Position numbers and translations under genes: made by a program. DNA of 64,000 nt, from positions 1 to 64,000 of IMG/VR virus record IMGVR_UViG_3300042307_001176; one strand, written 5' to 3'. Positions within the stretch are counted from its first letter, which is position 1, and the number at the start of each line of letters is the position of its first letter. This document shows, piece after piece, positions 19,939-60,165 of the stretch. Source of the stretch: a virus. The notes beneath the pieces are model-generated. The model did no database searches. It was not told the origin of the DNA and saw only the letters and a program-made list of their open reading frames with translations.

Positions 19939-20583
19939 ATGGCACAAGGAGTACATAAAATTACTGAAGATTTTGAAAGATCCCTGTGTGATTACACGGG
20001 ATCACCTCATGCAATTGCATTGGACAACATGAGTAATGCTTTATTTTTAGCTTTGTATTACGAAAAAAACATAAAGAAAAGTTTATCATCAGGAAAAGTA
20101 GATTGCCCATCTAAAACATACCCCTCAGTTCCGTGTGAGATTATTCATGCAGGTCTTAAGGTTAATTTTACTCCTGTTAAGGGAGATAAGATTAAAGGTG
20201 CATATCAGCTATCGCCAAGTAATGTTTGGGATTCAGCATTAAGATTTGATGCTGATATGTATATTCCGGGATCGCATATGTGTCTTTCATTTACTGGTCC
20301 TTATAAGACATTAAAATTAAGTAAGGGAGGCGCAATTTTAACTGACGATTACCAAGCTATGCTATGGTTTAAAAGAGCAAGGTTTAGTGGAAGGAGAGAG
20401 TGCTCATATCATGATGATAATTTTGATATGCTGGGGTGGAATTTTTATATGATGCCAGAGTTAGCTGCGAGAGGATTATTAATGATGAGTCAATTTTATA
20501 ATTTAGATGGCTCTAAAAAACATAATGTTGATTTGGAATTACCATACCCTGATTTGTCCAAATTTAAAATATACAAACAATGA
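19939..20583 (+). CDS. shortened DegT/DnrJ-type aminotransferase-like protein, copy 1
   Basis: 214 residues, compared with about 370 for normal DegT sugar aminotransferases. It keeps the N-terminal large-domain features: FERSLCDYTGSPHAIALDNMS, the SKTYPSVP loop, WDSALRF, the SFTGPYKTLKLSKGGA segment that should hold the PLP-binding Lys, and GWNFYMMPELAARGL. The whole C-terminal small domain is missing. It may act as a heterodimer or have lost catalysis. It overlaps the next gene by 4 nt and is paralogous to 22244-22870. Confidence 0.75.
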   Translation: MAQGVHKITEDFERSLCDYTGSPHAIALDNMSNALFLALYYEKNIKKSLSSGKVDCPSKTYPSVPCEIIHAGLKVNFTPVKGDKIKGAYQLSPSNVWDSALRFDADMYIPGSHMCLSFTGPYKTLKLSKGGAILTDDYQAMLWFKRARFSGRRECSYHDDNFDMLGWNFYMMPELAARGLLMMSQFYNLDGSKKHNVDLELPYPDLSKFKIYKQ

Positions 20584-22241
20584 GAATAGAGCAAACTAGC
20601 GTTGCAGGATGCCTTGGCTTCTTTAAGCCAGGATTCCTTGATAGATGGAAATTGGACGATTATAATGATGTAAATAAACCCTGCTTCTTTCTTGGAATAG
20701 AGCAGGTTGATATCATTAATAATCATAGAGGATTAAAGATTATCTATCCAATAAGTCCATATGATTGTACATTCCTTGAAAGAATAGAATACTCGGACAG
20801 CATCATCCTTATAGGAAGTCCATTCTTACCAGAGAATACAAGATATAAGATTAAGAATGTAGAATTGGAGCTTAAAGATTACTCAGAATTTAAACCAAAC
20901 GTGTTAGGTGATAAAATATATTGTTATATTGGATTCGAGTCAAGAAAGAATGAATTTGATTTTGATAGGATATGCAGGATACAAGAAAGAATAAACTACG
21001 AGATCATATATGTAAATACCGGTAGTCTATATGGGTACCTTCCCCCTAAAACACTAAAAGAAAACTATTACGATAGATGCTTTGTAAGTATAAACCTCAA
21101 TGGAGGAACGGGAATGACCACCGTCAGGGAATTGGGTTTAATGGGAAGAAATACCATTACAAATTCGAGATATAATTTTCCATCTATGCTAGAATATAAG
21201 AGTGATGACGATATAATTAGTCTCATAAATTCGGAGGCTAAAAAAATAGGAACCGTACAGGATTCAATGAATTGCCATAATGTGAATGATGAATGGCTTG
21301 ATTGTGATTTCTGGACCAATAATAATGAAGATATGAAAATAATAGAAATGAGAAATTCCTCTAATACACAGGGACTGCTTGATCTGATTAAAGCCTTACC
21401 AGATAATATTATAATGGGTGAGATTGGGTGTTATGCTGGAGAAAGCACCAGCATGTTTATGAAATCAGGCAAGGTAAGAAAAATGTACGCTATAGATATA
21501 TGGGAAGATGAATTGAACGTGTATGAGAATATAGAAAAAAATCATAGCTTCAGACTAGTAGAAACCAAATTTGATGATGCAACAAGGGGTATGAATATAG
21601 TCAAATTAAAAATGGATGCTGAGAGTGCATTACCAGAACTACCAGAGCTTGATGTAATATACATAGATGCAAATCACGAGTATGATTATATTAAAAAAGA
21701 TATAGAGGCTTCACTAAAAAGACTGAGTCCGGGATCGATTATTTGCGGTCATGACTATAATTTAGATTCTCCTGGAGTTATACGTGCAGTTAATGAATTT
21801 TTTGGAAAACCTGATAGAATATTTTCAGATTCAAGCTGGCTTGTTAAATTAAAAAATATAAAACTGGTACAATGCTCAGAGACATATTGGGAATTTGTTA
21901 GGTTATTAAGACTTGACGAAAGGGTTATTAATGGATTTATTAAAACATCACATATAAGCGCAGAGGAGCAGAGCGAATATATGAAAGTACACAGCAAAAA
22001 TTATCGAGTTGCATTATTTGATGGATCACCTGCCGGGTATATTGGTGTTATTGATGATGATATTAGGATCTGCACGCATCCAGATTTTCAAAGAATGGGT
22101 GTTGGTAGATTTATGGTTAATGAATGTATGGAAATCTGGAAATCTGCTTTTGCTAAAATAAAATTGGACAATTATGAGAGTATTAGATTTTTTGAATCAT
22201 GTGGATTTGAAAAGAAATTTTACATTCTAAAAAAAAATTAA
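20580..22241 (+). CDS. three-domain fusion: glycosyltransferase-like, methyltransferase, GNAT acetyltransferase
   Basis: 553 residues. Residues 1-240 resemble a GT-B-like domain (IYCYIGFESRKNEF, SINLNGGTGMTTVRELGLMG). Residues 260-430 are a class I methyltransferase (GEIGCYAGESTSMF, then VIYIDANHEYDYIKKDIEASL and GSIICGHDY), close to Methyltransf_24. Residues 440-553 are a GNAT acetyltransferase (ICTHPDFQRMGVGRFMVNE, then ESIRFFESCGFEKK). The first domain is short for a full GT-B enzyme. Joined activities imply ordered decoration of one sugar chain. No frameshift or linker breakdown is seen. Confidence 0.82.
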   Translation: MRIEQTSVAGCLGFFKPGFLDRWKLDDYNDVNKPCFFLGIEQVDIINNHRGLKIIYPISPYDCTFLERIEYSDSIILIGSPFLPENTRYKIKNVELELKDYSEFKPNVLGDKIYCYIGFESRKNEFDFDRICRIQERINYEIIYVNTGSLYGYLPPKTLKENYYDRCFVSINLNGGTGMTTVRELGLMGRNTITNSRYNFPSMLEYKSDDDIISLINSEAKKIGTVQDSMNCHNVNDEWLDCDFWTNNNEDMKIIEMRNSSNTQGLLDLIKALPDNIIMGEIGCYAGESTSMFMKSGKVRKMYAIDIWEDELNVYENIEKNHSFRLVETKFDDATRGMNIVKLKMDAESALPELPELDVIYIDANHEYDYIKKDIEASLKRLSPGSIICGHDYNLDSPGVIRAVNEFFGKPDRIFSDSSWLVKLKNIKLVQCSETYWEFVRLLRLDERVINGFIKTSHISAEEQSEYMKVHSKNYRVALFDGSPAGYIGVIDDDIRICTHPDFQRMGVGRFMVNECMEIWKSAFAKIKLDNYESIRFFESCGFEKKFYILKKN

Positions 22242-44296: not shown

Positions 44297-44613
44297 CAAG
44301 AAGATTTAAATTCTATAAGGAAGATAACAGATGGTTTGCTGATCTACCGGAATGGGAAGGAGAAAAAGACGATCTAGAGATGGTAATGGGTGCTGACATT
44401 TTATTAGAAATTCTTTCGGGAAATTCAGACTATTGTTATGTTACTTTTAGTGACGAGCCTTTTGATGATGCTAAGATTCTTTCTTACGATCATAACGAAT
44501 CTACTGCGGGATATTACAACAATGACGCGTGGCACGGTCCTTCTACTATTTGGCTTTGTTATGTGACTGAATTTGTTTTTGGAGGATATCCGGAGAAGAT
44601 TTATTTCTCGTAG
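44293..44613 (+). CDS. hypothetical protein
   Basis: 106 residues. Its start overlaps the phosphatase stop (ATGA), which suggests coupled translation. The fold looks beta-rich (RRFKFYKEDNRWFADLPEW, YVTFSDEP) with several Trp. Plant- and phage-type DUF6717-like proteins have this kind of start, but I am not sure. It overlaps the convergent zincin gene by 13 nt. Confidence 0.62.
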   Translation: MTRRFKFYKEDNRWFADLPEWEGEKDDLEMVMGADILLEILSGNSDYCYVTFSDEPFDDAKILSYDHNESTAGYYNNDAWHGPSTIWLCYVTEFVFGGYPEKIYFS

Positions 44614-45053
44614 TATTCTATCATCTTTACAGCATTTGATATTAACCAGGCATCAACTTCAGGGACTTTCATTAAAAAATTAAGTTCGTATCTGTAGCAA
44701 AGGGACTCTTCCTTATTAGGATCTAATTTAAAGTAAAGTTGCTTAATGTATAGATGCATGGATTCATGAACTAGTATAGCAGCTATATTATAGATATTGG
44801 ATGACTTTATATCATTAACAGCTATAGTTATCATCGAATCTCCCTCAGTTGTTGAAAAAGCCCCGTTCCAATATCCTATATTATGACACGTCTCTAATAA
44901 AACATTATATTTTTCTTGATCATATTTTTTTATTATTAAAATTGCACTATCTACTTTATTTTTCCACCCATCCCCGACATCTGCTACTTTTATTTGTGCA
45001 AATAAAGGGAATAAATTAAAAGATATTAATAAAATAATACATGATCTAATCAT
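44601..45053 (-). CDS. secreted zincin-like protein
   Basis: 150 residues. A signal peptide (MIRSCIILLISFNLFPLFAQ, cut after about residue 19) is followed by a domain with AAILVHESMHLYI: the HExxH zinc motif is at 96-100, and Glu115 or Glu116 (NKEESLCYRYE) may be the third ligand. The domain is small for a metallopeptidase. It is last in the minus-strand exported-protein operon, and its start overlaps the upstream stop by 4 nt. Confidence 0.72.
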   Translation of the reverse strand: MIRSCIILLISFNLFPLFAQIKVADVGDGWKNKVDSAILIIKKYDQEKYNVLLETCHNIGYWNGAFSTTEGDSMITIAVNDIKSSNIYNIAAILVHESMHLYIKQLYFKLDPNKEESLCYRYELNFLMKVPEVDAWLISNAVKMIEYYEK

Positions 45054-45502
45054 AGTTTAGAAGCTGCTTCGTGTATTGCTTTTTTAAGCGATGTTGATAC
45101 AGTCATTTTTTCGAAAGGAATAGCTCCTTCCTGAACCTCTATCATAATAGCTCTTATTTCGGTATCTGATTCACCTATACCTTCGTACTTGTTACCTTTA
45201 TAGTATAGCCTAACACCTACCTGTGTTATTGTATTAGTTTTTTCTACACCAACTATTCTTATTGTCGTTTTAGGTAAGCCAAAATAGAATACCTCAACCT
45301 TAACCGGATCACCTTCGTCAGAAAGACAAAACTTCTGAGATAACTCCTCCTCGACTATTTGTTTTATACCGAATCTTATATCCCTAGATCCTAGCTCTCT
45401 AAGCTTTGCTGTAACGTAAACCGTGTCTACCTTTACACAATCTTGTGCTTGTGCTGTTATACCAATAAGTACAAGTCCGAAAAATATGATAATTTTTTTC
45501 AT
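45050..45502 (-). CDS. small exported protein with a CsgG-like C-terminal half
   Basis: 150 residues with a signal peptide (MKKIIIFFGLVLIGITAQAQ). The second half (ITQVGVRLYYKGNKYEGIGES, then MTVSTSLKKAIHEA) follows the same order as the end of the CsgG-like protein at 49468 (TTRLGLQIKFVDAETSQVI, GLGEAS, STIGISTKKALETA). It may be a periplasmic partner or a reduced paralogue. It is not clearly CsgE or CsgF. Confidence 0.62.
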   Translation of the reverse strand: MKKIIIFFGLVLIGITAQAQDCVKVDTVYVTAKLRELGSRDIRFGIKQIVEEELSQKFCLSDEGDPVKVEVFYFGLPKTTIRIVGVEKTNTITQVGVRLYYKGNKYEGIGESDTEIRAIMIEVQEGAIPFEKMTVSTSLKKAIHEAASKL

Positions 45503-46095
45503 TATTTAATAATATATTTAGTGTAGTCAGTTGATGCTGGCTTTTCATTTTTAAAATAATATCTCTCAACATTATTTCCGTATTTAATTGTCTTAATGTA
45601 TCCATCAGGTATTGTTGCACCAGTTGGTAATACTATAGATTTGCTAGAAAATATACATCTTATCTCGACAGTAACTGTTTTATTAGTTCTAGCAAGTTCT
45701 CTTTCTCTTACTTCTAATAATCTCCAAGTTGTTCTATTTAGGTTTTCTTGCTGTAGTGAGCAGTTCAAATATGTGAATGTTTTATATAATAATTCCTTAG
45801 TGCAATTAAAGTCCGCTGCTGGAGCTAAATGTCCTTTATCGTAAGGGTTATTTTCATAATCCTTATTGTCTGAAGTCAAAATTGAATCACATATATAAAA
45901 ATCCATCCCAGTCCTCGGAGCAGTTCCGTTTGGACATTGTACAGTGTATCTGATAAATTTAGGCTGTTGTAATTTTTCTGAGTATACAATCTCAAACATA
46001 TTAGTTTTAATGTATACTGAATCTCTTAACGTTTTTTGCCCATAAATAAATAATGGGGTTGTAAATAGTAAAAATGATAGTAATAGATTTTTCAT
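45502..46095 (-). CDS. secreted DNA/RNA non-specific endonuclease (NUC1 type)
   Basis: 197 residues. A signal peptide (MKNLLLSFLLFTTPLFIYGQ) precedes a beta-beta-alpha-metal nuclease. The catalytic motif YDKGHLAPAADF is at 85-96 with His89 as the general base, and NCSLQQENLNRTTWRLLE (111-128) holds the metal-binding Asn and the following Asn, Trp and Glu of the family. The usual motif is DRGH; here it is DKGH. Export suggests it degrades extracellular or periplasmic nucleic acid, such as competing phage DNA or host eDNA. Confidence 0.9.
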   Translation of the reverse strand: MKNLLLSFLLFTTPLFIYGQKTLRDSVYIKTNMFEIVYSEKLQQPKFIRYTVQCPNGTAPRTGMDFYICDSILTSDNKDYENNPYDKGHLAPAADFNCTKELLYKTFTYLNCSLQQENLNRTTWRLLEVRERELARTNKTVTVEIRCIFSSKSIVLPTGATIPDGYIKTIKYGNNVERYYFKNEKPASTDYTKYIIK

Positions 46096-47804
46096 TAGTC
46101 TGATTTTCCTGTTTTTATTATATAAAATACCGAAGACCCACCGGCCGTCGGATTAGTTAATGTTATGCTTTGTGATCCTGGATAAGATGGTACCGGATTT
46201 CCTGGGTGTGAATTTATTAATGTAAATTCTGTCTGCGTAATAATTCTATAATTAGGTACTCCAATAGGCCACGATAATCCATTTATTTTCATGTATATCC
46301 AATATATATCAGTAACAGAAAGTGTAGAATTAGTATTCACATCCATTCTATAGTAGTCCATTTTTTGAAAATTCTGATTCAATATTTTATCAATAAAGAA
46401 ATTTACGTCTAAATTATTTGGTAGATCTACAGACAAATTATCTAGTGTAACTTGAAAATCATAAATTGCTGTATCCAGCTGAGTAGTTATTGAAAAACTT
46501 CCTAATGAATTTGTAGTATAAGTCTGTAGTAACGTATATGTTAATCCTGATTTTAATTTATAAAATAACTTAACTGATATTCCAGGAACAGCTATAGATT
46601 TAGAGTTGTATATAATCCCTGAATACGTAAATGGAATAGGATAGTTTACTGTAGCAATGACTGGTGTTCTTGAAGAGCTAACACATCCACTTGTTGTGTT
46701 TCTTGACTGAGCATAGTATGTTGTTGTATTTGATATACTAGGTGTAGTGTAATTAGTAACACCTAGACCATTTGATAACACATTTCCCCCAATTGAGTTT
46801 GCGTACCAATCTACAGTAGATCCGGAAGGAGGGGTTGCAGATAAAGCAACAGTTCCAGCCAGCATCCTACTTCCGTTAATACCACCAGGAGCATTAGGAG
46901 CATTTGCAGCAGTACAAGATATTTGGTGGGTAACAAACCCGGTATAAAACTGTGTAAATGTTTGGTTAGCTGGATCAGTCCACGTACCGTATTCGATTAC
47001 ATAGGGACAAGAAAAATTATTTGGTAAATCGTTCCATTGGGATCCGTTCCATTTAGTAACAGCATAGTGTTCACCCCCTGCGTTATTAGGTTCTCCTCCA
47101 GCCCAGTTATTATATTGACCAGCTATGTTACCCGCAAATTGACCATTTTGAGTTTTAATTAAAGTTCCATTTTCTGGACCTGCATCTATTCTCCAATACC
47201 CTTCTTGAGCAACATCGGATAGTGCAAACCATATTTGAGACTGAGGTACATTATTATATATGAATGCGTCTTCGTCTGCTGATGTGATAGTTACTAAATA
47301 CCCAGTTTGCCCTTTAAACGTGGTAGCTGCAGCTGCAGATTTAGCTGAACTGTAAAATGCACCAGTTGAGATCGGTCTATAGAAATGTCCATTAGATGGA
47401 AGATAAAAGTACCCAACAGGATTCTCTGTAGCAGTTACTGCAATGTAAACATTACCTGGGATAGATCCAGTATTTAATCTTAAAGAAGCCAATACGCTAT
47501 TTACATTAGATAATGTCCCAGTAAAACTTATTCTCGTAAAGTTTGCTGTAATATTGTATCCAGTACTAGCAGTTACTCCTGCAGTTGTATTTAGTCTTAA
47601 TGTTGTTCCTGAAGGTGGATTAACCAATCCTATTGTGATTAGTAGAGTTGAAGAGGCATTAAATCCCGTTACTGAGAATCCACTTATAATTTGGTTAGAT
47701 GTATTTTGAGGGTATGATGATGCACTTGGTGCCACAACACTCTGTGCACTTAAAGAAGTCCAAGTGAATAATATTATTGCCCAATTACAAATCTTGTACC
47801 ACAT
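46095..47804 (-). CDS. secreted multi-domain protein with C-type lectin domain
   Basis: 569 residues from the ATG at 47804, which precedes the signal peptide MWYKICNWAIILFTWTSLSAQ. An N-terminal beta-rich domain is followed by a C-type lectin domain (about residues 138-272: AFYSSAKSAAAAT, WFALSDVAQEGYWRI, WAGGEPNNAGGEHYAV, WNDLPNNFSCPYVIEY). An Ig-like repeat (GTVALSATPPSGSTVDWYA), a carboxypeptidase-regulatory-like beta domain, and a dockerin-like segment (MDVNTNSTLSVTDIYWIYM) follow. The E-P-N triad in the lectin loop suggests calcium-dependent sugar binding. No T9SS tail is present. Confidence 0.85.
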   Translation of the reverse strand: MWYKICNWAIILFTWTSLSAQSVVAPSASSYPQNTSNQIISGFSVTGFNASSTLLITIGLVNPPSGTTLRLNTTAGVTASTGYNITANFTRISFTGTLSNVNSVLASLRLNTGSIPGNVYIAVTATENPVGYFYLPSNGHFYRPISTGAFYSSAKSAAAATTFKGQTGYLVTITSADEDAFIYNNVPQSQIWFALSDVAQEGYWRIDAGPENGTLIKTQNGQFAGNIAGQYNNWAGGEPNNAGGEHYAVTKWNGSQWNDLPNNFSCPYVIEYGTWTDPANQTFTQFYTGFVTHQISCTAANAPNAPGGINGSRMLAGTVALSATPPSGSTVDWYANSIGGNVLSNGLGVTNYTTPSISNTTTYYAQSRNTTSGCVSSSRTPVIATVNYPIPFTYSGIIYNSKSIAVPGISVKLFYKLKSGLTYTLLQTYTTNSLGSFSITTQLDTAIYDFQVTLDNLSVDLPNNLDVNFFIDKILNQNFQKMDYYRMDVNTNSTLSVTDIYWIYMKINGLSWPIGVPNYRIITQTEFTLINSHPGNPVPSYPGSQSITLTNPTAGGSSVFYIIKTGKSD

Positions 47805-49471
47805 GTTATAGTATAATTTAAAGCGCTTGTTTTTAAATCCCAAGCTCCTCCGCCATTTATATTAAATTTGAATTTCTTAGTTATTTTTATGTTTGTTCCT
47901 ATACTTGGAAGCATCACATACGGTGATTTTAAAAGTACATCGTTATAATAACTTACATAAGGAGCATAAACCATTAAATTCATTAGTTTTATATCAAATC
48001 TTTTACCTACCCTAAAATCATATGTTCCACCCACTATTAATGCAGTTCCTAGAAATGATTCCCTATATACTGTACCGTATGAAACCGTGGCCATGTAAAG
48101 CAATTTAAGATTCTTTGGTTTTTTTATATTAAACATTTGTCCTGCTGCAAATGTTCCGTATAATGATCTATTACCTTCGAAACCTATTGTTAAAGTACCT
48201 GAAGTCAATATAATAGACTTAGGTCTTATCCATGCATAAAATGTTGTTATGTTAGGTCCTTTTAATGCTGATGTGTAATCTACAAGAGCACCATAGCTTC
48301 TTTTTCCGTCCCATCTCATCGATGTATATCCTCCTGTTGCTTTAGCACCAGTCTTAACTTCTGAGTTTTTAAAATTGAATCCTATAAAATCAGCACTTCC
48401 AACAACAGTTGGTTTTCCCCCTTCCTTACTAGTTGGTGTTGATTTAATTGTAGTAGAAGCACCTGCAGTTATATTTGTTTTGCCTTGTCCTTGTTCAGAT
48501 TGTGTGTTTGTTTGTCCTTCTTCCGTCTGCCCGTTAGAATTATTATTTCCTGAACCATTCCCATTATTCCCAGTGCTACCAGTATTACCATTGGGATTAT
48601 TATTACTAGATTCTCCATTTCCTGATGTTTGATTATTTGTTTGCGCATTCTCCGATTCTTGAGAAGTTGTATTACTGTTTTGCTGTTCCCCTTGTGTGCT
48701 TGTTGTTCCTTGAGTTTGTGTTGTTGTACCTTCCCCTGTAGTATTTGTTTGTCCGTTTTGAGTATTTCCACCACTAGTAGTTGTTGTGTTTCCTGGTCCT
48801 TGAGGTGTATTGGTTGTATTTCCTGTATTTTGTCCACCTTCAGGTTGGGATCCTGATCCTCCGTTTGTTGATCCTTGCCCTTCCTGTTGAGATCCAGATC
48901 CTCCGTTTGTTGATCCAGGTTCAGTATTTTGAGACCCTTCCTGCTGAGATCCTGTATTATTAGTCTGATTTTGAGATCCGTTTTCCTGTGTCTGTGTGTT
49001 ATTTGCTGATTCGTTATTGTTATTTTTTTTATTTTCTTTTTTTCCTTCACTCTTTCCTCCACCAGCATTAGAAACTGAATTTACTGATCCGCCTAATATA
49101 TTTGTTGATCCTGCTATATCTGATATAGTTGATAAAGAATTTAAAATACCTATTACATTTAATGCGGTACTTTGTGTTACGTTTACTGCTGTCCCTAGTC
49201 CAACTATTTCTGAGCAAGGACTATTTGTTCCGTATTGTGAAAATATGTTACTTGCCCACGCCTCAAAATTTCCATTAGTAAAATCGTTATAGCTAAAAGA
49301 TCCTATTGATCCATAATATCCTACTGTAACGTTTCCATTTATAGGGACTATTATTGTTTTATCGTTACCTGTACATGGATCGGTATAGGTGTAGTTGTAT
49401 GTCTGTGCACTTATTTTATAAGAACTGAATAGACAAACAAATAAGAGTAATATAATTGCATTTGGTTTCAA
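47774..49471 (-). CDS. outer-membrane beta-barrel protein with long low-complexity linker
   Basis: 565 residues from a TTG whose bases overlap the upstream stop (TTGA), as expected for coupled translation. A signal peptide (MKPNAIILLLFVCLFSSYKISAQ) comes first. Residues 140-340 are a Asn/Gly/Gln/Ser/Thr-rich linker with a 45-bp repeat in the DNA. The C-terminal 200 residues form regular amphipathic strands that end in an aromatic residue near the terminus (GTRFVIGQ), as in outer-membrane barrels. It may pair with the CsgG-like pore in front of it. Confidence 0.78.
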   Translation of the reverse strand: MKPNAIILLLFVCLFSSYKISAQTYNYTYTDPCTGNDKTIIVPINGNVTVGYYGSIGSFSYNDFTNGNFEAWASNIFSQYGTNSPCSEIVGLGTAVNVTQSTALNVIGILNSLSTISDIAGSTNILGGSVNSVSNAGGGKSEGKKENKKNNNNESANNTQTQENGSQNQTNNTGSQQEGSQNTEPGSTNGGSGSQQEGQGSTNGGSGSQPEGGQNTGNTTNTPQGPGNTTTTSGGNTQNGQTNTTGEGTTTQTQGTTSTQGEQQNSNTTSQESENAQTNNQTSGNGESSNNNPNGNTGSTGNNGNGSGNNNSNGQTEEGQTNTQSEQGQGKTNITAGASTTIKSTPTSKEGGKPTVVGSADFIGFNFKNSEVKTGAKATGGYTSMRWDGKRSYGALVDYTSALKGPNITTFYAWIRPKSIILTSGTLTIGFEGNRSLYGTFAAGQMFNIKKPKNLKLLYMATVSYGTVYRESFLGTALIVGGTYDFRVGKRFDIKLMNLMVYAPYVSYYNDVLLKSPYVMLPSIGTNIKITKKFKFNINGGGAWDLKTSALNYTITCGTRFVIGQ

Positions 49472-50214
49472 TTTTTAAATATCCCTTTCGTAATCATTCT
49501 GCTTACCACTCTTGACGATGCGGTTTCTAAAGCTTTCTTTGTGGATATACCTATAGTTGATTGATTAAATTTAACATCATCTGAAATATCACCTAAAATA
49601 TTAGATGTTTTTACTGTGCTTGCTTCACCTAATCCAGATCCCACAATAACTTGACTTGTTTCAGCATCTACGAATTTTATTTGTAATCCTAATCTTGTTG
49701 TTTGTGTAGTTGTTTGTTGTCCGTTAATCTTAACAACCTCATCTTCAGAAACACTAAAGTCATATACTTCAATGTATACAAAATATTTGGCTAGTATTAC
49801 ATTTCCTTTTACGTCTATTTTGTTAACTGATATACCCTTATCTGAAGCTTTATCTTGTGATATCATTCTTTGCTTAATATCTTCTTTTTCTTCAGTGAAT
49901 ATGAATCTACCAGTATACTCTAGATATTCTATAACTATATTGGTTACACCTAAGCCTACCCTTTTGTCTTTGAGCTCTGGATATAATTCATATAATTCCT
50001 CATTTATACCAATCTTTAAAAGCTGTATAGGAACTTGTATTGTGTCTGTATAATCTGCAACATCGTTTATAGATTGCTTTTTTTCAAACTCTGCCTGATA
50101 TTGTTCAGTTTTTACTGAGCCAATACCACCGCCATTATTTTGAGGTGGCTGTGCCTGTAAATTTTTACAACCAAATAAGCTTAATATTGATATTATGAAT
50201 ATTATTTTTTTCAT
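49468..50214 (-). CDS. CsgG-like outer-membrane secretion channel lipoprotein
   Basis: 248 residues from the ATG at 50214; an upstream extension is open but would precede the signal peptide. The signal ends in the lipobox LFGC (Cys16). YLEYTGRFIFTEEKEDIKQRM matches the CsgG block that contains a Gly-Arg-Phe turn, NVILAKYFVYIEVYDFSV the next, and TTTQTTRLGLQIKFVDAETSQVI with STIGISTKKALETASSRV the C-terminal part. CsgG forms a nonameric pore that exports curli subunits. No curlin repeat gene is seen nearby, so the cargo would differ. Confidence 0.85.
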   Translation of the reverse strand: MKKIIFIISILSLFGCKNLQAQPPQNNGGGIGSVKTEQYQAEFEKKQSINDVADYTDTIQVPIQLLKIGINEELYELYPELKDKRVGLGVTNIVIEYLEYTGRFIFTEEKEDIKQRMISQDKASDKGISVNKIDVKGNVILAKYFVYIEVYDFSVSEDEVVKINGQQTTTQTTRLGLQIKFVDAETSQVIVGSGLGEASTVKTSNILGDISDDVKFNQSTIGISTKKALETASSRVVSRMITKGIFKN

Positions 50215-50216
50215 TT

Positions 50217-50858
50217 TTACTCTTCTATTTGACTTCTTAATAATCCACATGTTTGGCATTCTTCAAAACCATCACCATCTGAGTCTCCCCAAATATGCTC
50301 GCAATTTCTATGTTCAAAGTATTCATCAATATCTCCATCGCCATCAGTATCGTAACCGTCATTTACTCCGTCACCATCTTCGTCAACTTCAACTTTTTGT
50401 GATTCGTTTACAATATATTGTTCTACAGGAGAAAAATATTCAACTGCCGGTTCCTCTTCGTAAACTTCCTCTACGTCTTCAGTTTTTTTTTCGGCGGTAG
50501 GTGAATCCATGGAAGGATCAGCAACATTAGAAAGAGTTACACCATCTTCTTCGTCAACTTTTTGAATTAGCATTTTATCTCTATCTTCAGAATTGAACCA
50601 ATAATCTACTACTTTATTTAAGTTACCTACAAATGCTCCTAATAGTATTAATAGCATTTCTTTCCAATCTTCTCCGATGCTCTTTCCTAAAAATACGCCA
50701 GCATTAATACCTAATATAATAAGAGTAAATAATCCTAATACGATTGCTGTTATTCTCCATCTATTTGCTTGCATCTGTTGAAGCATGTAGTAGAACCTAT
50801 TTTTATCTTCTACTTTGACATAGTCAGTTTTACTGTTAAAGAAATTTTTAATTGCCAT
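50217..50858 (-). CDS. holin-like membrane protein with calcium-type D-x-D-G repeats
   Basis: 213 residues. Two membrane helices (about 34-58 and 66-82) are followed by NLNKVVDYWFNSEDRDK, resembling the end of the holin 3-TM family. The C-terminus has D-x-D-x-D-G loops (DEDGDGVNDGYDTDGDGDID, DSDGDGFEEC) like thrombospondin type 3 or EF-hand calcium sites, and two CxxC pairs. A long acidic linker joins the two. It may be a holin with an added sensor, or a scaffold for the secretion genes. Confidence 0.65.
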   Translation of the reverse strand: MAIKNFFNSKTDYVKVEDKNRFYYMLQQMQANRWRITAIVLGLFTLIILGINAGVFLGKSIGEDWKEMLLILLGAFVGNLNKVVDYWFNSEDRDKMLIQKVDEEDGVTLSNVADPSMDSPTAEKKTEDVEEVYEEEPAVEYFSPVEQYIVNESQKVEVDEDGDGVNDGYDTDGDGDIDEYFEHRNCEHIWGDSDGDGFEECQTCGLLRSQIEE

Positions 50859-50881
50859 TTTTTTTTATTTTTTTTATTTTT

Positions 50882-51223
50882 TTACCAAGATTCCTCTTCC
50901 TCTTTTTTAGGTTTAATAGGTTCTTGTGTTGTTGGTGCAGGTTTTTCAATAATTCTTTCGTGTATAATTGTATTACCTCCACCATTTTCAGTCTTTTGTT
51001 TATTCTCCTGATTTTGCTCTACATTGATAGTAATTGGTGCTTGTCCCCCAGATTGTTCTGTTTTATTTTCCTCTGCTGGTTCGTCGCTACCGCCTCCGAA
51101 CAATGTAGTACTTAACCATATTCCACCGCCTGCAATTACTGTAGTTAGTGTTCCGATGATTGTCTTTTTTAATCCAGACCAAGTTCCATCATTAGTCTCT
51201 GGTGCATTTGTTTCTTCGCTCAT
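50882..51223 (-). CDS. single-pass membrane protein with acidic/Gln-rich tail
   Basis: 113 residues: one hydrophobic stretch (about 20-44, including TIIGTLTTVIAGGGIWLSTTLFGGG), then a low-complexity tail rich in Glu, Gln and Pro. It could be a holin or antiholin partner of the next gene. Function unknown. Confidence 0.6.
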   Translation of the reverse strand: MSEETNAPETNDGTWSGLKKTIIGTLTTVIAGGGIWLSTTLFGGGSDEPAEENKTEQSGGQAPITINVEQNQENKQKTENGGGNTIIHERIIEKPAPTTQEPIKPKKEEEESW

Positions 51224-51227
51224 ATTT

Positions 51228-53159
51228 TTATTTTATTTTAGCTATTTTTTCCACTATAGTTTTTCCGTTTTCTGTAGATAGAGTTACGAAATATAATCCT
51301 GATTGTAATCTGCCAAGATCTGTACAGTAAGAAAATTGTCCATTTGGTACTTGACCAGTTAATATTGTAGCTAGCTTCCTTCCTTGTAAATCCGATACAT
51401 ATAAAGTAGCATTTGATGTTTCTGATAGGCTAAATGTTATTGTGACATCTTTTTCAAATGGATTAGGATAAACTATCATAGAGTTTGAATCTAATAATTG
51501 TCCATTAGATATCTTTAATACTTGAAGTATTCCATTTGTTGGTGTTAGAGTTAAATCTTTAGAATTTGCTGCATTTCCTGCAAATTTTCTGGTAGTGTAT
51601 AAAGGACTCTCATCCCATTGATTTTGCGGTTGAAGTGCTACGAATTGTAGTGTAACAACATCGTCTCCATTTTTTAAAGTATTCTGACTGTTAGTAATAT
51701 CATATCCTCCCCAATCTATTTCACCGTCGTTTGCATTAATATAAGTTAACCATTTCATTGCAGAAGATGATGAATAAACTCCTTTGAATAAAAGTAAGTC
51801 TGAATTATATTTCAATCCAAATTGTAGTGAGTTTAGTTCAATACCATTAGTTAATACTTTAACTGGTATATTTACTAAGTTACCCTCTTGAACTGATATG
51901 TGAGGCACATTAACTTCTATAGAAGATGTTGGGAAATCATATTCAACTTTAGTGTCTATTACATTATAGATCTGATTCTCTAATCCTGGTGCAGGTCCTA
52001 CAAGAACTTCAATTGGAGTTACACGAGCCATATGATAACCTGTACCATTAGCATCACCAGGTACAACTACGTAATAAATAACCGAATCTGGTTGACCTGG
52101 CAATATATCGAATGTAAAGTTTGTTGCTCCTGATATTGACGCAGTATAGTTAGTTGATGATCCATTAATAGTATTGTATTCTGTCTGTGTAAAGAATTTA
52201 ACATCTTCGGTATTATTAGGCCATACTGAGAATCTTCCAGAAATTCTACCGAATACCCCATATGCGTCAGATATCGTTATATTATCTGATTCATTAACAT
52301 CTGCTGCATAATAATTAAATCCTGTCATTGTACCGTTACCTAATACCCATTGATTTATTAACTGTGCATCTGCAGTTGAAATAACATTACCTACTGCCAT
52401 TGAATCTCCTTGTACTGCTAATCTTACATCCCAATAAGTAGTATCTAAAGGAACCGAGATAGCAAAGTCTCCGTTTATGTCAGTAGTATAAGCCGAGTGT
52501 TGTGTCCAAGTATTACCTCCTAGTGGTCTTCTCTGTAATGCTAATGTTAAGTTCTTAGCTGGTGTTCCGGTTACATTATTAAATGTTCCGTGATATGCAA
52601 AGTTTTGAAATATAAAGTTACCACCATAACTGTGTATATTTAAAGTCGTATCTGTTCCATCCTGTTTTGCTGAATACGGAGGAAATGTATTAGCTGCTGG
52701 AACAACCGACCAAGCTAATGGTGTGATAGATGCTAAGTTATTAAATATTGATGAAGCAGCGTGTGTGAAAGTAATCTCGAATCTTTCTCCATCTGGTAAT
52801 GTATATACAGAACTAGCTCCAGTATAAACTAATGTCATAGTTACATAACCGTTTGCGGCACTTGTTATATACTGAAAATCTAAGTTGGTTGGAGATCCTA
52901 AAAGAGATACAGTAGCATTAGTGAATGCTATTTTATCATAGAATACTCTGAATTGTACACCTGTATATTTAGTAAGAGTTGTATTTTTTAAAGTGACCTT
53001 TGCTGTGGTAAATCCTTGTGTAGTTGTACCGACTGTGTAATTAGTGTCGATTATGGCCCATATACCAGTAGAAGGTGCTGGTGGACCAGATTGTGAAAAT
53101 AAGTTAAGAGTTAGCGTCATAAAAAACGCTAGAACACTTAACATTCTTAATGTCCTCAT
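51228..53159 (-). CDS. T9SS-secreted cohesin/dockerin-like surface protein
   Basis: 643 residues. A signal peptide (MRTLRMLSVLAFFMTLTLNLFSQ) opens the protein. A dockerin-like stretch (AADVNESDNITISDAYGVF, about residues 285-303) and a cohesin-like domain (about 415-555: GNLVNIPVKVLTNGIELNSL, LLLFKGVYSS) follow. The last 80 residues are a type A T9SS sorting domain (MIVYPNPFEKDVTITFSLSE, LYVSDLQGRKL, LQSGLYFVTLST). This signal directs export through the host type IX system and surface attachment. The gene heads the minus-strand operon. Confidence 0.9.
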   Translation of the reverse strand: MRTLRMLSVLAFFMTLTLNLFSQSGPPAPSTGIWAIIDTNYTVGTTTQGFTTAKVTLKNTTLTKYTGVQFRVFYDKIAFTNATVSLLGSPTNLDFQYITSAANGYVTMTLVYTGASSVYTLPDGERFEITFTHAASSIFNNLASITPLAWSVVPAANTFPPYSAKQDGTDTTLNIHSYGGNFIFQNFAYHGTFNNVTGTPAKNLTLALQRRPLGGNTWTQHSAYTTDINGDFAISVPLDTTYWDVRLAVQGDSMAVGNVISTADAQLINQWVLGNGTMTGFNYYAADVNESDNITISDAYGVFGRISGRFSVWPNNTEDVKFFTQTEYNTINGSSTNYTASISGATNFTFDILPGQPDSVIYYVVVPGDANGTGYHMARVTPIEVLVGPAPGLENQIYNVIDTKVEYDFPTSSIEVNVPHISVQEGNLVNIPVKVLTNGIELNSLQFGLKYNSDLLLFKGVYSSSSAMKWLTYINANDGEIDWGGYDITNSQNTLKNGDDVVTLQFVALQPQNQWDESPLYTTRKFAGNAANSKDLTLTPTNGILQVLKISNGQLLDSNSMIVYPNPFEKDVTITFSLSETSNATLYVSDLQGRKLATILTGQVPNGQFSYCTDLGRLQSGLYFVTLSTENGKTIVEKIAKIK

Positions 53160-53270
53160 TTTTTTTAGTTATTTAGTTGGTTGTCTACATATATATTTTT
53201 TACCCGTAAAAAAACTGCTAGCATTTTAAAAAATATATTAAATATTTAAAATAATTGAATTAAAATTAAA

Positions 53271-53370
53271 AAGGGCCAAGGTGGTTGCGATTTCCTTGAC
53301 CCTTAGATTATTACTTGCGTAACATCACGGTCCTAAGCCGTGTAAGATTGAAATTTTCGAGTCTTTATAT
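53271..53370. other. structured non-coding segment
   Basis: The gap 53160-53401 holds no gene. It contains a hairpin AAGGGcCAAGG / CCTTGaCCCTT (53271-53304, one mismatch) and a second, CACGG-TCCTAAG-CCGTG (53326-53342). Read on the minus strand the first hairpin is followed by a T tract, as in a terminator, so a short minus-strand RNA could end here. A tRNA was considered but the arms do not fit. The rest of the gap is AT-rich and may hold promoters for both sides. Confidence 0.3.
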
Positions 53371-53401
53371 AGTATAAATATTATATTATATATCTAAAAT
53401 T

Positions 53402-53918: not shown

Positions 53919-54740
53919 ATGTTACTTAAAAATGGATCAAAAGGAGATGATGTAAAAAAACTCCAAGAAAAATTAGGACTGGCCTCAGATGGTTCTTTCG
54001 GTCCCGGTACAGAAGCTAAAGTTAAAGAATGGCAAGCAGCTAATGGATTAACAGCAGATGGTATTGTCGGCGATGGTACTTGGTCTAAAATGTTCGGTTC
54101 AGCACCAATTGCAGCAGCACCAATTTCTATTCCTTCTTCATCTTTTAAGTTGGAAAATTTAAAAGGACACGTTCCCGATTCAGTTCTTGCACAGATCCCA
54201 GATACAGCAGCTAAATTTAATATTACAAATACATTAAGACTTGCTCACTTCTTAGCACAGTGTGGTCATGAGTCTGGAGGCTTTAAAGCAGTTTCAGAGA
54301 ATCTAAACTACTCTGCTGACGGTCTTAAAAAAATCTTCCCTAAATATTTCCCCGGTAATCTTAATGAGTCTTATGCAAGACAGCCAGAGAAAATTGCTTC
54401 AAGAGTTTACGGAAGCAGAATGGGTAATGGCGATGAATCTTCTAAAGAAGGATACAAATTTAGAGGTAGAGGCTATATTCAATTAACTGGTAAATCTAAT
54501 TATTCTTCTTTTGATAAATTAGTAGAGGATGATATCGTAGGAAATCCAGATTTAGTTGCTACTAAATACCCTTTAATGTCTGCAGCATTTTTCTTTAATA
54601 ATAATAGCCTTTGGTCTATTTGTGATAAAGGAGCAGATGATGCTACAGTTACTGCAGTAACAAAAAGAGTAAATGGAGGTACTATTGGATTATCTGATAG
54701 AATTAAACACTTTAAAGAGTATTACGCATTACTTAAATAA
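53919..54740 (+). CDS. endolysin: PG_binding_1 plus GH19 domain
   Basis: 273 residues. Residues 1-60 are a peptidoglycan-binding domain with two half-repeats (VKKLQEKLGLASDGSFGPGT and VKEWQAANGLTADGIVGDGT). Residues 80-273 are a glycoside hydrolase 19 lysozyme-like domain: LAHFLAQCGHESGGF puts the catalytic Glu at 118, and YKFRGRGYIQLTGKSNY and FFFNNNSLW follow. It would cut the glycan strands of peptidoglycan at lysis. No signal peptide is present, so release through a holin is expected. Confidence 0.93.
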   Translation: MLLKNGSKGDDVKKLQEKLGLASDGSFGPGTEAKVKEWQAANGLTADGIVGDGTWSKMFGSAPIAAAPISIPSSSFKLENLKGHVPDSVLAQIPDTAAKFNITNTLRLAHFLAQCGHESGGFKAVSENLNYSADGLKKIFPKYFPGNLNESYARQPEKIASRVYGSRMGNGDESSKEGYKFRGRGYIQLTGKSNYSSFDKLVEDDIVGNPDLVATKYPLMSAAFFFNNNSLWSICDKGADDATVTAVTKRVNGGTIGLSDRIKHFKEYYALLK

Positions 54741-54761: not shown

Positions 54762-56114
54762 ATGAAAAAAATTATATTAGGTCTATTAATGATTTTTGTA
54801 GGACTATTTATTGTACTATATTCATGTATTAAAAATAAAAAAATCACACCAGTTCAATTCCCAGATGTAGCAATCCAAAATTTTAAATTTCCAGAGGATT
54901 CAACAACTATTAATCAGTGGTTATCTAAACAAGACACCGCACAGATTATAAGTCATGCATGGGGTATTTGGGCAGGTTTAACTGAACCTACTGATCAAAA
55001 ATATAACGGCCAAACTTTATTAGTGTTTGAAACATGGTTAGGTATACAGGAAATAGCAAATTCGTCAAATAATAACACTTCTAAAATTAATAGAACTGCA
55101 TTAAATGTACCAAAACAATTCATCCATGGAGCATTAAAAGACCCACAAGTTATAGACACTACATTTCAAGTATTAGAAACTGTGTCATATGATCCATGGG
55201 CAGCAAACTTTGCAATATCTAATCAACTGTTGACTGGCTCAAAATTAAGATCTTATGCAGTAAGCGATGGAATTGGTTCTATACCAGATTTTCCCAATGC
55301 ATCTATTGTAACTAAACCTACATACTATACGGGAATACCAGATAAGAATAGTTTAATCAGAGTTCCTGTTTGGGTATCACCAGTTCCTGCTAAGGCGTTC
55401 AGGTCTTCAGATTGGAAAACTTGGGTTTATGCTGATATTAACAACCGTCAGAAACCCAATAAGATTTTAGTTCCTGTCACTTCTTCAAATCCCTCTAAAA
55501 AAGAGATTGAAAATGCAACATGCAACCTAAACGAATTTATTAACTACAAACTTGATGAAGAAGGTGCTGAGTATTTAAATCTACACGAGGATTTTAATAG
55601 TACCACTTATAAAGATGGTGATTATGTTTTATTGGTTGCTATGCACGTTGCGACTAAGGAAATTAAAAACTGGACATGGCAAACATATTTTTGGTGTCCA
55701 GATCCAAAAAATCCTCCATCACCAAGCTCAAAATTTGCAGCAGACTTAAAACCTAAAGAATTAAAAGGTGCAGCATCTCATTATGCAGTCAGTGTTGCTT
55801 ATGCAATGGTTTGGCCAAATCAACCAATAACGGGTGGCAGCGACAAAAACACAAGACCTATCATATCATTTAATCCTTATTTAGAAGGAGGTTTTGGACC
55901 TAAAGTTTTTAACTATCCTAACACATATAAACCAGAATTTATTTATGGAATGCAAACTAATTGTATGTCTTGTCATGCATTAGCAACATATAAAGGTACA
56001 GCCGGATATACGACAGATCAATACATAGATATGAAAAATTTAAAACTATTTAAAAACGATATCCAATTAGATTTTCTTTGGTCAATTCAAGGAAATATGG
56101 ATACGCTTAAATAA
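54762..56114 (+). CDS. lipoprotein with c-type haem-binding motif
   Basis: 450 residues. An N-terminal hydrophobic segment ends in VLYSC, a probable lipobox near residue 22. Near the C-terminus CMSCH (401-405) is a CxxCH haem c attachment motif. The body is soluble with many Trp and Pro and has the look of cytochrome-family hypothetical proteins of Bacteroidota. Such a gene is unexpected between endolysin and tail-collar genes. The axial ligand and true haem binding cannot be decided from sequence. Confidence 0.65.
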   Translation: MKKIILGLLMIFVGLFIVLYSCIKNKKITPVQFPDVAIQNFKFPEDSTTINQWLSKQDTAQIISHAWGIWAGLTEPTDQKYNGQTLLVFETWLGIQEIANSSNNNTSKINRTALNVPKQFIHGALKDPQVIDTTFQVLETVSYDPWAANFAISNQLLTGSKLRSYAVSDGIGSIPDFPNASIVTKPTYYTGIPDKNSLIRVPVWVSPVPAKAFRSSDWKTWVYADINNRQKPNKILVPVTSSNPSKKEIENATCNLNEFINYKLDEEGAEYLNLHEDFNSTTYKDGDYVLLVAMHVATKEIKNWTWQTYFWCPDPKNPPSPSSKFAADLKPKELKGAASHYAVSVAYAMVWPNQPITGGSDKNTRPIISFNPYLEGGFGPKVFNYPNTYKPEFIYGMQTNCMSCHALATYKGTAGYTTDQYIDMKNLKLFKNDIQLDFLWSIQGNMDTLK

Positions 56115-56137: not shown

Positions 56138-56395
56138 ATGAACGATGAAAATATAATGGGCAGTATTATGCTATTTGCTGGAAATTTTGCACCACAAGGA
56201 TGGGCTTACTGTAATGGAGCAACATTGGAAATACAGCAATACGAGGCGCTATACGCTATTCTTGGAAATACTTATGGAGGAGACGGAGCTACCAATTTTA
56301 AATTACCAAATCTTGTAGGCCCAGTACCTACAATAGGAGTAGCACCTATGAATTACGTTATTTGTACTCAGGGAATTTTTCCAAGTAGATCATAA
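56138..56395 (+). CDS. tail collar domain protein, single domain
   Basis: 85 residues. GSIMLFAGNFAPQGWAYCNG, EALYAILGNTYGGDG and FKLPNL form one phage Tail Collar domain (Pfam PF07484 by pattern). It is shorter than usual and probably assembles as a trimer or with the three-domain homologue at 56722. A role in short tail fibre or receptor binding is likely. Confidence 0.88.
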   Translation: MNDENIMGSIMLFAGNFAPQGWAYCNGATLEIQQYEALYAILGNTYGGDGATNFKLPNLVGPVPTIGVAPMNYVICTQGIFPSRS

Positions 56396-56413
56396 TAAAT
56401 TATAGACTAATTA

Positions 56414-56713
56414 ATGGAGAATAAAGAGGAAAATAAAGATCAAACACCAATATCAGGATTTGCTGATGTATTTCTTTCAAAGCTAAAAGAGCAGTCATTT
56501 GTGATCATTCTTATGCTTGGTGTAATATATTACCAACACAGATTAATGGAAGAGAGAGTAGCATTTTGGCAAAAGCAATACGAAGAGAAAGAAGCTTATA
56601 TTCAACAAACAGTAGCAAGCGACAAAGAAATCATGTTAGATAGAATTAAGTATCTTCAAGATCAAAGGGATCAATATGCACAAGATGCAATAGATGAATT
56701 AAAAAATAAATAA
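56414..56713 (+). CDS. single-pass membrane protein with coiled coil
   Basis: 99 residues: a membrane helix at about 28-44 (FVIILMLGVIYYQ) followed by a charged helix of 50 residues (MEERVAFWQKQYEEKEAYI). It lies between two collar genes. It may be an i-spanin-like or accessory lysis protein; no lipoprotein partner overlaps it. Confidence 0.62.
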   Translation: MENKEENKDQTPISGFADVFLSKLKEQSFVIILMLGVIYYQHRLMEERVAFWQKQYEEKEAYIQQTVASDKEIMLDRIKYLQDQRDQYAQDAIDELKNK

Positions 56714-56721
56714 AAACTGAA

Positions 56722-57537
56722 ATGGATTGGATGGAATCCGCACTAGGAGAAATTACAATATTTGCTGGATCATCAAGAAATCTACCAAAAGGGTGGATTT
56801 TTTGTAACGGTCAAACTCTAAATGAAATGCAAAATAATGCCTTATATGCAGTTATAGGAGATTCATACGGGACTAAAGATCCTAATCACCAAGTTTTTTA
56901 TATACCAAATATTACAAATATTTCTTCTAATGCTGAAGATTGGGATGATAGCCCAGCTTTAAGATATATGATGGGTATTAATTCTGATTGTTCTATGTGG
57001 CCTTATGCAGAATCAGATAACGATAATTCAATAATTAACGGAATAACCGGATCAATTATATTATTTTCTGGAATTTTTATTGAGGGATCTGATAATAAGA
57101 CTTTAGGTAAAAGCTGGAGACTCTGTGATGGAAGAATATTAGAAATAACAGATTATCCTATTCTATTTAAATTGATAGGAACTAAATACGGTGGAAATGG
57201 AATTACCACGTTTGGTCTTCCAAATCTCTCCGGTCCATCAAACAATTCGGTAAAATATTTTATGTGCGTTGATGGAATTTCACCTGATGATAGTGGTGAA
57301 GGATATTCAGGAGAAATCAGATTATTTGGTGGAGATACTGCACCACAAGGATGGATTTTTTGTAACGGAAAAGCTTTAAAAGTTCAAGACTATTCGCCTT
57401 TATTCTGTCTTATAGGATGTACCTATGGTGGAGATGGTGTACATACATTTGAATTGCCAAATATTCCTAGCCCAGAGGGAACTACATTAAAATATATGAT
57501 ATGTGTCAATGGTATTTGGCCAGTATCAGAGGACTAA
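56722..57537 (+). CDS. tail collar protein with three collar domains
   Basis: 271 residues with three copies of the collar pattern: GEITIFAGSSRNLPKGWIFCN (about 8-28), GSIILFSGIFIEGSDNKTLG...WRLCDG (about 110-137), and GEIRLFGGDTAPQGWIFCNG (about 192-211), each followed by a YGG..G..F.LPN loop. The third copy is closest to the single-domain protein at 56138, so domain duplication within the locus is likely. A tail-fibre or baseplate tip role is inferred. Confidence 0.88.
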   Translation: MDWMESALGEITIFAGSSRNLPKGWIFCNGQTLNEMQNNALYAVIGDSYGTKDPNHQVFYIPNITNISSNAEDWDDSPALRYMMGINSDCSMWPYAESDNDNSIINGITGSIILFSGIFIEGSDNKTLGKSWRLCDGRILEITDYPILFKLIGTKYGGNGITTFGLPNLSGPSNNSVKYFMCVDGISPDDSGEGYSGEIRLFGGDTAPQGWIFCNGKALKVQDYSPLFCLIGCTYGGDGVHTFELPNIPSPEGTTLKYMICVNGIWPVSED

Positions 57538-59565: not shown

Positions 59566-60165
59566 ATGTATACAAGAGAACAAATTGAAGGTGCGGTTAA
59601 AGCCAAGGGTTATGTCTATTTTGAAGACGCTAACAAAAAAGGATTTGATGTTAATATTATTGGAATTAGAAATTCTTCTACAGGACAGAAGGTTACTAAC
59701 GCTTTTGACGATCTATTAACTATATCATACAAAGATGAAACTGGAGCTTGGAAATATCACGAATGGCCAGCTACAACAGATCCAGGAAAAAAAGGTGTTT
59801 TGGAATACCACAATACAGCTGGTGTAGCTAGACTAGTAGAAGGTCAATATAGAGGATCTCACACAATTAGATTACATCAAGGTAAATATGAAGCATTAGG
59901 ACAAGCTAAAAACGTTAAAGTTTATAGAGATGCTAATAAAGATCTAAACTATGATGAGAATAAAATTCAAGAAGGAGTATTTGGTATAAATATACACAAA
60001 GCTGGAGCAGATTCAACTTATGTTGAAAACTGGTCTGAAGGATGTCAAGTATTTAAAAAATCAGCCGATTTTGAAGCGTTTATGAAAATTTGTAGAAAAT
60101 CAAAAGATTTACACGGCAATTCATTTACATATACATTAATTGAATCAACAGATATTAAGGTTTAA
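59566..60165 (+). CDS. L,D-transpeptidase-like or related Cys protein
   Basis: 199 residues. RGSHTIRLHQGKYEALG, FGINIHKAG and ENWSEGCQVFK match the spacing of YkuD-type domains, in which a His precedes an S-x-G-C catalytic Cys motif. The usual SHGC is SEGC here. Phage proteins of this kind are found near tail genes. Peptidoglycan binding or modification is likely, activity uncertain. Confidence 0.62.
   Translation: MYTREQIEGAVKAKGYVYFEDANKKGFDVNIIGIRNSSTGQKVTNAFDDLLTISYKDETGAWKYHEWPATTDPGKKGVLEYHNTAGVARLVEGQYRGSHTIRLHQGKYEALGQAKNVKVYRDANKDLNYDENKIQEGVFGINIHKAGADSTYVENWSEGCQVFKKSADFEAFMKICRKSKDLHGNSFTYTLIESTDIKV

Follow-up and report, generated by a model that had tools for sequence, protein, structure and literature searches.

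Organization of the operon

The virus record IMGVR_UViG_3300042307_001176 is 154,411 bases long, and we analyzed its first 64 kb, referred to here as the window. On the minus strand, at positions 44601-53159, lies an operon of nine genes for predicted exported and membrane proteins, for which we tentatively propose a role in phage egress. In reading order, the genes encode a surface scaffold, two small membrane proteins (TM113 and TM213), a protein with a predicted CsgG fold, an outer-membrane barrel protein, a C-type lectin protein, a DNA/RNA non-specific endonuclease, a small paralogue of the CsgG-like protein and a putative zincin peptidase. An open reading frame (ORF) check of the window recovered all nine, as listed in a preliminary description of this DNA, and by inspection seven of the nine proteins carry a signal peptide or lipobox, also as described, the exceptions being TM113 and TM213. 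Two starts were refined, to Met 50214 for the CsgG-like protein, as in its relatives, and to Met 47804 for the lectin protein. With these corrections, five of the eight gene junctions overlap, by 4, 31, 1, 1 and 4 nt, and the other three are gaps of 4, 23 and 2 nt, so that the earlier statement that most junctions overlap by 1-31 nt still holds.

Conservation and distribution of the module

Related loci were selected by similarity, with the best 80 kept per scan. We compared 125 loci, which after clustering at 90% identity gave 20 lineages with enough flanking sequence; these lineages share ancestry, and their neighbor counts are not fully independent. Across the 125 loci the same order recurs with limited shuffling: scaffold, TM113, a small membrane protein (TM213 or family c9 or c15), CsgG-like protein, barrel, lectin, in some cases the nuclease, small CsgG-like protein and zincin. 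The barrel and the small CsgG-like protein occur in all 20 lineages, the scaffold and TM113 in 19 each, a holin-like membrane protein in 17, an endolysin in 15, the zincin in 12 and the nuclease in 5. The preliminary description had left conservation of gene order as a point to be checked; the order is kept far beyond chance, which marks the operon as a conserved module of phages and not as an accidental array.

At least 539 viral contigs and 1 of 84,980 prokaryote genomes carry a relative of the CsgG-like protein. The sole prokaryote match (CAIWBA010000291.1, locus L073) is a 254-kb contig in a Bacteroidetes metagenome-assembled genome; it carries the same module together with an endolysin and is probably a large phage contig binned with its host. 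A temperate or cellular origin of the module was accordingly rejected, the one matching prokaryotic contig itself bearing module and endolysin. Among cultured phages, a CsgG-like relative occurs only in Flavobacterium phage immuto, where gp12-gp19 include the nuclease, the lectin, a split scaffold, TM113 (gp16), the CsgG-like protein (gp17), the barrel (gp18) and the small CsgG-like protein.

Three loci (L066, L067 and L068) hold a divergent module in which the scaffold is replaced by an exported protein of ~570 aa and a lipoprotein of ~125 aa, the end of the latter resembling a sorting domain. These loci may come from phages of another host group.

The lineage counts bear on one explanation of the module, nutrient scavenging, in which the exported nuclease and peptidase would digest extracellular polymers and a barrel/CsgG complex would import the products during a long infection. 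The nuclease and the zincin are indeed exported, and in immuto the locus is next to genes for ribonucleotide reductase. However, these two enzymes are the most dispensable components (5 and 12 of the 20 lineages), against a constant scaffold, TM113, CsgG-like protein, barrel and small CsgG-like protein, and the module has no transporter or TonB-type parts. We consider scavenging very improbable.

The CsgG-fold protein, its paralogue and the barrel

The CsgG-like protein (49468-50214, minus strand) carries the lipobox LFGC. Scans of Pfam and NCBIfam gave no PF03783 match for it or for 23 relatives, no match among PDB sequences supported that family, and by hhalign the family profile did not significantly match E. 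coli and phage CsgG (2% probability). Its AlphaFold2 (AF2) model, built like our other models from a shallow alignment, is of moderate quality, with a mean predicted local distance difference test (pLDDT) score of 65. In Foldseek searches with this model, the first 22 PDB matches were all CsgG (best E 5.8e-9), followed by other members of the fold class, including FlgT and PelC, and the best viral match was phage CsgG (E 8.5e-9). The model thus supports a CsgG fold for the protein; membership of the CsgG family is not supported. Proof of CsgG homology by sequence comparison failed, and fold comparison alone works. The earlier designation as CsgG-like therefore stands insofar as the fold search returns CsgG above all else, but not at the level of PF03783.

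Besides the window protein, about 40 of 77 non-redundant relatives have a lipobox, and about 30-37 lack one, in contrast to CsgG; many relatives have a signal peptidase I type signal instead. A test of strand amphipathicity did not separate real CsgG from the CsgG-like family. Polar hairpins were rejected as an argument against a pore, the strands of real CsgG scoring no more hydrophobic.

The small exported protein encoded at 45050-45502 (minus strand) has conserved cysteines. Its profile matches that of the CsgG-like family by hhalign (96% probability, E 1.7e-9), which identifies it at the profile level as a paralogue of the CsgG-like protein and agrees with its previous annotation as CsgG-related.

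The outer-membrane barrel protein (47774-49471, minus strand) was modeled by AF2 with a periplasmic-type N-terminal domain (residues 24-119), a disordered, low-complexity linker of ~220 residues rich in N, Q, G, S and T, and a 12-strand barrel (residues 355-564; pLDDT mostly 75-93 over this block), bearing out its initial assignment as a barrel. By Foldseek, the model resembles generic 12-strand barrels, including the amyloid secretion channel FapF and EstA. Like FapF, the protein would combine a 12-strand barrel with an N-terminal periplasmic domain and a flexible linker, a modeled likeness of layout and barrel size only. A CsgG-fold ring with a barrel partner is known from PelC-PelB. Unlike FapF and PelC-PelB, to which it has no sequence relation, the present module contains no amyloid or Pel genes.

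A second explanation, in line with the export system of the preliminary description, is type VIII-like secretion, in which the CsgG-fold protein would be a true nonameric outer-membrane pore for phage cargo, namely the lectin, nuclease or zincin, or else the barrel protein's low-complexity linker. General family scans of the nine operon proteins gave no CsgF or curlin match, with no direct CsgF profile comparison made; lacking PF03783, CsgF and curlin matches, a simple curli operon was rejected, as the preliminary description had concluded. These negatives, the 2% profile probability against real CsgG and the absence of a lipobox from nearly half of the CsgG-like family also argue against a type VIII-like system, as does the endonuclease, a folded-enzyme type unlike CsgG substrates. 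What speaks for it is the modeled CsgG fold itself, the overall FapF-like layout of the barrel and an N/Q/G-rich linker reminiscent of amyloid substrates. On balance, such a pore seems unlikely.

A predicted cohesin-dockerin scaffold for the host surface

The first gene of the operon (51228-53159, minus strand) encodes a 643-aa protein with a signal peptide, an N-terminal beta domain and, by Pfam and NCBIfam matches, a dockerin-bearing domain, a cohesin (residues 414-543) and a type A sorting domain of the type IX secretion system (T9SS; residues 563-639). The sorting domain is firmly matched (PF18962, 5e-12; both PF18962 and TIGR04183 above cut-off) and recurs in 24 of 24 diverse scaffold relatives. 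The cohesin match of the window protein (E 8.8e-5) lies just under the curated cut-off taken alone; cohesin is found in 22 of the 24 relatives (best E 8e-13) and dockerin in 14 (E<=0.1). Among PDB sequences, the scaffold profile matches scaffoldin cohesin and dockerin, with E 0.001-0.006 for the scaffoldin matches, and the Por C-terminal domain (CTD). A second cohesin candidate at the N-terminus is a weak match (E 0.13). By its domain content, the protein is a predicted scaffoldin combining cohesin, dockerin and T9SS sorting domain, and its signal peptide and C-terminal sorting domain are those expected of T9SS cargo.

The lectin protein (46095-47804, minus strand) contains Lectin_C (3e-6) and Ig_7 (1e-14) domains and ends in a dockerin-bearing domain of ~160 residues that aligns to that of the scaffold (E 3.5e-34). 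It has no T9SS sorting domain, and a sorting-domain-like end was seen in 0 of 102 downstream dockerin/lectin proteins. In its relatives the binding part is Lectin_C (11 of 20), LamG (5 of 20) or GEVED (3 of 20), so that the binding domain is swappable while the dockerin-bearing end is kept.

Two exported enzymes complete the operon. The endonuclease (45502-46095, minus strand) matches Endonuclease_NS (PF01223, 1.4e-19), and its D[RK]GH motif is present in 26 of 26 unique relatives. The putative zincin (44601-45053, minus strand) shows HExxH and a downstream Glu in 56 of 56 unique relatives; its PHROG matches are weak and to families with no assigned function. The T9SS surface protein, lectin, nuclease and zincin of the preliminary description are thus all recovered. 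Its broader view, of a phage-encoded export or surface-display system with its own cargo, is retained as regards a conserved surface and envelope module; export with its own cargo is not borne out, because the sorting domain of the scaffold predicts exit through the host T9SS and not through a phage pore.

These proteins could act on living cells. In surface remodeling or adhesion, the main rival to egress, scaffold and lectins would use the host T9SS to coat the infected cell, keeping out other phages or sticking cells to one another, and dockerin proteins without a sorting domain would be exported or anchored with the help of the CsgG-fold/barrel complex. The division of labor between scaffold (sorting domain in 24 of 24) and downstream dockerin/lectin proteins (0 of 102) fits this explanation, as do the exchange of binding modules on a constant dockerin-bearing end, the constancy of the scaffold (19 of 20 lineages) and the 'sibling capture' proposed for pelagimyophage curli genes (PMC7029224). 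It leaves TM113 and the persistent linkage to endolysin and holin-like genes unexplained, and no clumping was seen with phage Melnitz by Buchholz et al. (PMC9004378). We regard such a surface role as possible though doubtful, and a true secretion pore as less likely.

TM113, TM213 and the link to lysis genes

The gene next to the operon, a divergent neighbor at 53919-54740 on the plus strand, encodes an endolysin (PG_binding_1 and Glyco_hydro_19; phrog_181 endolysin, 7e-65). This GH19 endolysin was omitted from the preliminary description and belongs to the same conserved neighborhood. Endolysin is the commonest non-core neighbor, present at 70 of the 125 loci at a median distance of 663 bp, and its occurrence near the module in 15 of 20 lineages compares with 7 of 20 for the next non-core family. 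It is found upstream and downstream and on both strands, in all four positions and orientations (6/4/4/1); the link therefore survives rearrangement, and plain synteny hardly accounts for such repeated re-association. At L067, a single same-strand run comprises nuclease, endolysin, small CsgG-like protein, two exported proteins, a TM113-like protein, c9, CsgG-like protein and barrel. A second putative wall-lytic protein, of family c10 (59566-60165, plus strand; phrog_33083 endolysin, 5e-12), is a recurrent neighbor at 37 of 125 loci.

TM213 (50217-50858, minus strand) is a small membrane protein that is holin-like by topology. It gave no match in family scans or among cultured phages, and PHROG and Pfam returned no holin family for the small membrane proteins of the module; nor did holins like c9, c15 or the immuto families match elsewhere in G000. 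Other lineages have c9 or c15 in place of TM213 between TM113 and the CsgG-like gene, and in 17 of 20 lineages a member of one of the three families is found no more than 1.5 kb from the CsgG-like gene. In immuto, the c9 homologue gp192 sits beside the endolysin gp191, an orthologue of the endolysin of the window (62.6%), and the annotated holin gp190.

TM113 (50882-51223, minus strand) is a small protein with a weakly hydrophobic N-terminal segment, likely N-in, and a Pro/Asn/Gln-rich tail ending in an invariant Trp. In each of 72 unique relatives the last residue is W (EESW, DAPW and so on), preceded by a motif that is acidic or contains proline, and the divergent TM113 analogues of L067 and L068 keep the terminal W. 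The topology is plausible for an inner-membrane spanin (i-spanin), but the hydrophobic segment is weak; a tail ending in a fixed Trp suggests a docking peptide.

A proposed egress module

The steady association with endolysin and holin-like genes suggests a role in lysis or egress more than secretion for its own sake. Our tentative interpretation is that the operon is an egress module of Bacteroidota-infecting phages, consisting of a trans-envelope complex and surface proteins that would open and clear the envelope of the host as the progeny depart, and hijacking the host T9SS. Holin-like small membrane proteins (TM213, or c9 or c15 in relatives) would give the endolysin access to the wall. 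TM113 would reside in the inner membrane, with the invariant Trp of its long periplasmic tail docking on a partner at the outer membrane. There, we infer, the CsgG-fold protein could assemble with the small paralogue into a ring on the inner side of the membrane, beside the 12-strand barrel, whose N-terminal domain would hang into the periplasm on the flexible linker; together, CsgG-fold proteins and barrel would stand in for spanins in breaching the outer membrane late in infection. The cohesin/dockerin scaffold would leave via the host T9SS and anchor dockerin-bearing lectins on the surface, where they may mask glycan receptors or hold cells or debris, and nuclease and zincin may break down released DNA and protein. 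Computation supports the gene content and order, the export signals, the CsgG fold, the barrel, the T9SS, cohesin and dockerin domains and the endolysin linkage; the interactions, the ring, the outer-membrane step and the timing belong to the proposal.

Several points weigh against this interpretation. A T9SS-exported lectin scaffold is not obviously needed for lysis; for a holin function of TM213, c9 and c15 there is only their topology and position to go by; and a promoter-motif search gave no expression timing. In immuto, moreover, the module lies ~27 kb from the endolysin cassette, among genes of replication and nucleotide metabolism, so both units can live apart and the link is not absolute.

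Upstream and neighboring sequences

In the operon leader (53160-53400, minus strand) there are three short hairpins; one of them, GGGTCAAGG...CCTTGGCCC with T5 after it, is terminator-like. The leader gave no Rfam match, a single sub-threshold match to a CRISPR (clustered regularly interspaced short palindromic repeats) repeat lying elsewhere, and an RNA element was rejected for want of such a match. Among the sequences listed, the leader also occurs in the closest relative, L003, and in no other. In related loci, TATTTATA/ATATTTAT occurs upstream of first genes at ~4-5 times the expected frequency and is a possible phage promoter element; as a phage-type promoter motif, TATTTATA was set aside, given its weak orientation preference and lack of timing information.

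Adjoining the endolysin, an exported protein of 450 aa (54762-56114, plus strand) has a CxSCH-type motif (MQTNCMSCHALATYKG) and is possibly cytochrome-like; it matches phrog_19967 (1.3e-27), for which no function is assigned. Consecutive ORFs at 56138-57537 (plus strand) carry several tail-collar-like repeats (FAGNFAPQGWAYCNG...) and resemble microcystin-dependent/MdpB-type proteins. Farther away, a 553-aa protein (20580-22241, plus strand) unites DNA methyltransferase and acetyltransferase PHROG matches in one chain.

Discussion

The closest precedent for the module is the CsgGF operon of pelagimyophages. As in pelagimyophage HTVC008M and Methylophilales phage Melnitz (PMC7029224, PMC9004378), large phages encode a CsgG-fold outer-membrane protein within an operon of exported proteins. 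Their CsgG is 37-40% identical to E. coli CsgG over >90% of the query, and their operons hold true CsgG, CsgF, annotated curlin-repeat proteins and a cyclase, none of which was detected in the present family; conversely, the scaffold, lectin, barrel, TM113 and endolysin linkage are particular to the module described here. Roles in lysis, uptake and sibling capture have been proposed for those operons (PMC7029224, PMC9004378), and the lysis-timing role suggested for Melnitz (PMC9004378) fits the endolysin linkage of the present module. In a metagenomic survey, csgG ranked with the 'virulence' genes that were most abundant in marine phages (PMC7003362).

Other parts recall separate systems. Like the lambda Rz/Rz1 spanins, the module would pair an inner-membrane protein bearing a periplasmic tail with a partner on the outer-membrane side, near endolysin and holin-like genes. 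Unlike in lambda, no coiled-coil Rz-like protein or short outer-membrane spanin (o-spanin) lipoprotein was identified, coiled coils not having been searched for in TM113, and the outer partner would be the CsgG-fold protein with the 12-strand barrel. The cryoconite 'Cryophage' likewise has genes with T9SS type A sorting domains, whose products should leave through the T9SS of the host (PMC7468147); there the cargo consists of variable single genes (endoglucanase, GH39, PA14) and not, as here, of one conserved scaffold in a fixed operon. As in cellulosomes, a scaffold with cohesin and dockerin would be anchored at the cell surface and have binding partners that bear dockerins; unlike cellulosomes, the system is phage-encoded and predicted to be T9SS-anchored, carries lectins in place of cellulases, and its cohesin-dockerin pairing is itself a prediction. 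In the open-licence literature we found no description of a phage cohesin-dockerin scaffold or of this operon. The earlier claim that no such phage system is known thus holds for the operon as a whole but not for its elements, given the published phage CsgG/CsgF operons and T9SS cargo.

The way in which phages lacking recognizable spanins get through the outer membrane is a question still to be answered. The published list of spanin-less phages includes those of Bacteroides and Croceibacter; no spanin was found in the Bacteroidota phages B124-14 and P2559S/Y, among others, and an outer-membrane protein has been suggested as a possible o-spanin (PMC6139136). With this module, CsgG-fold proteins are seen in phages in a second case, which looks independent of the first. 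As judged from its domains, the module also appears to include a phage-encoded cohesin-dockerin surface scaffold that uses the host T9SS. We speculate, as a rather unlikely extension, that in Bacteroidota phages spanins are replaced by a dedicated outer-membrane-opening complex, made up of a TM113 tether, a CsgG-fold ring with its paralogue and a 12-strand barrel, and linked to a cohesin/dockerin lectin coat, exported by the T9SS, that removes or hides receptors at egress; this would constitute a new class of lysis machinery. The wide distribution of the module in viral contigs and its presence in the cultured Flavobacterium phage immuto make the question directly testable.

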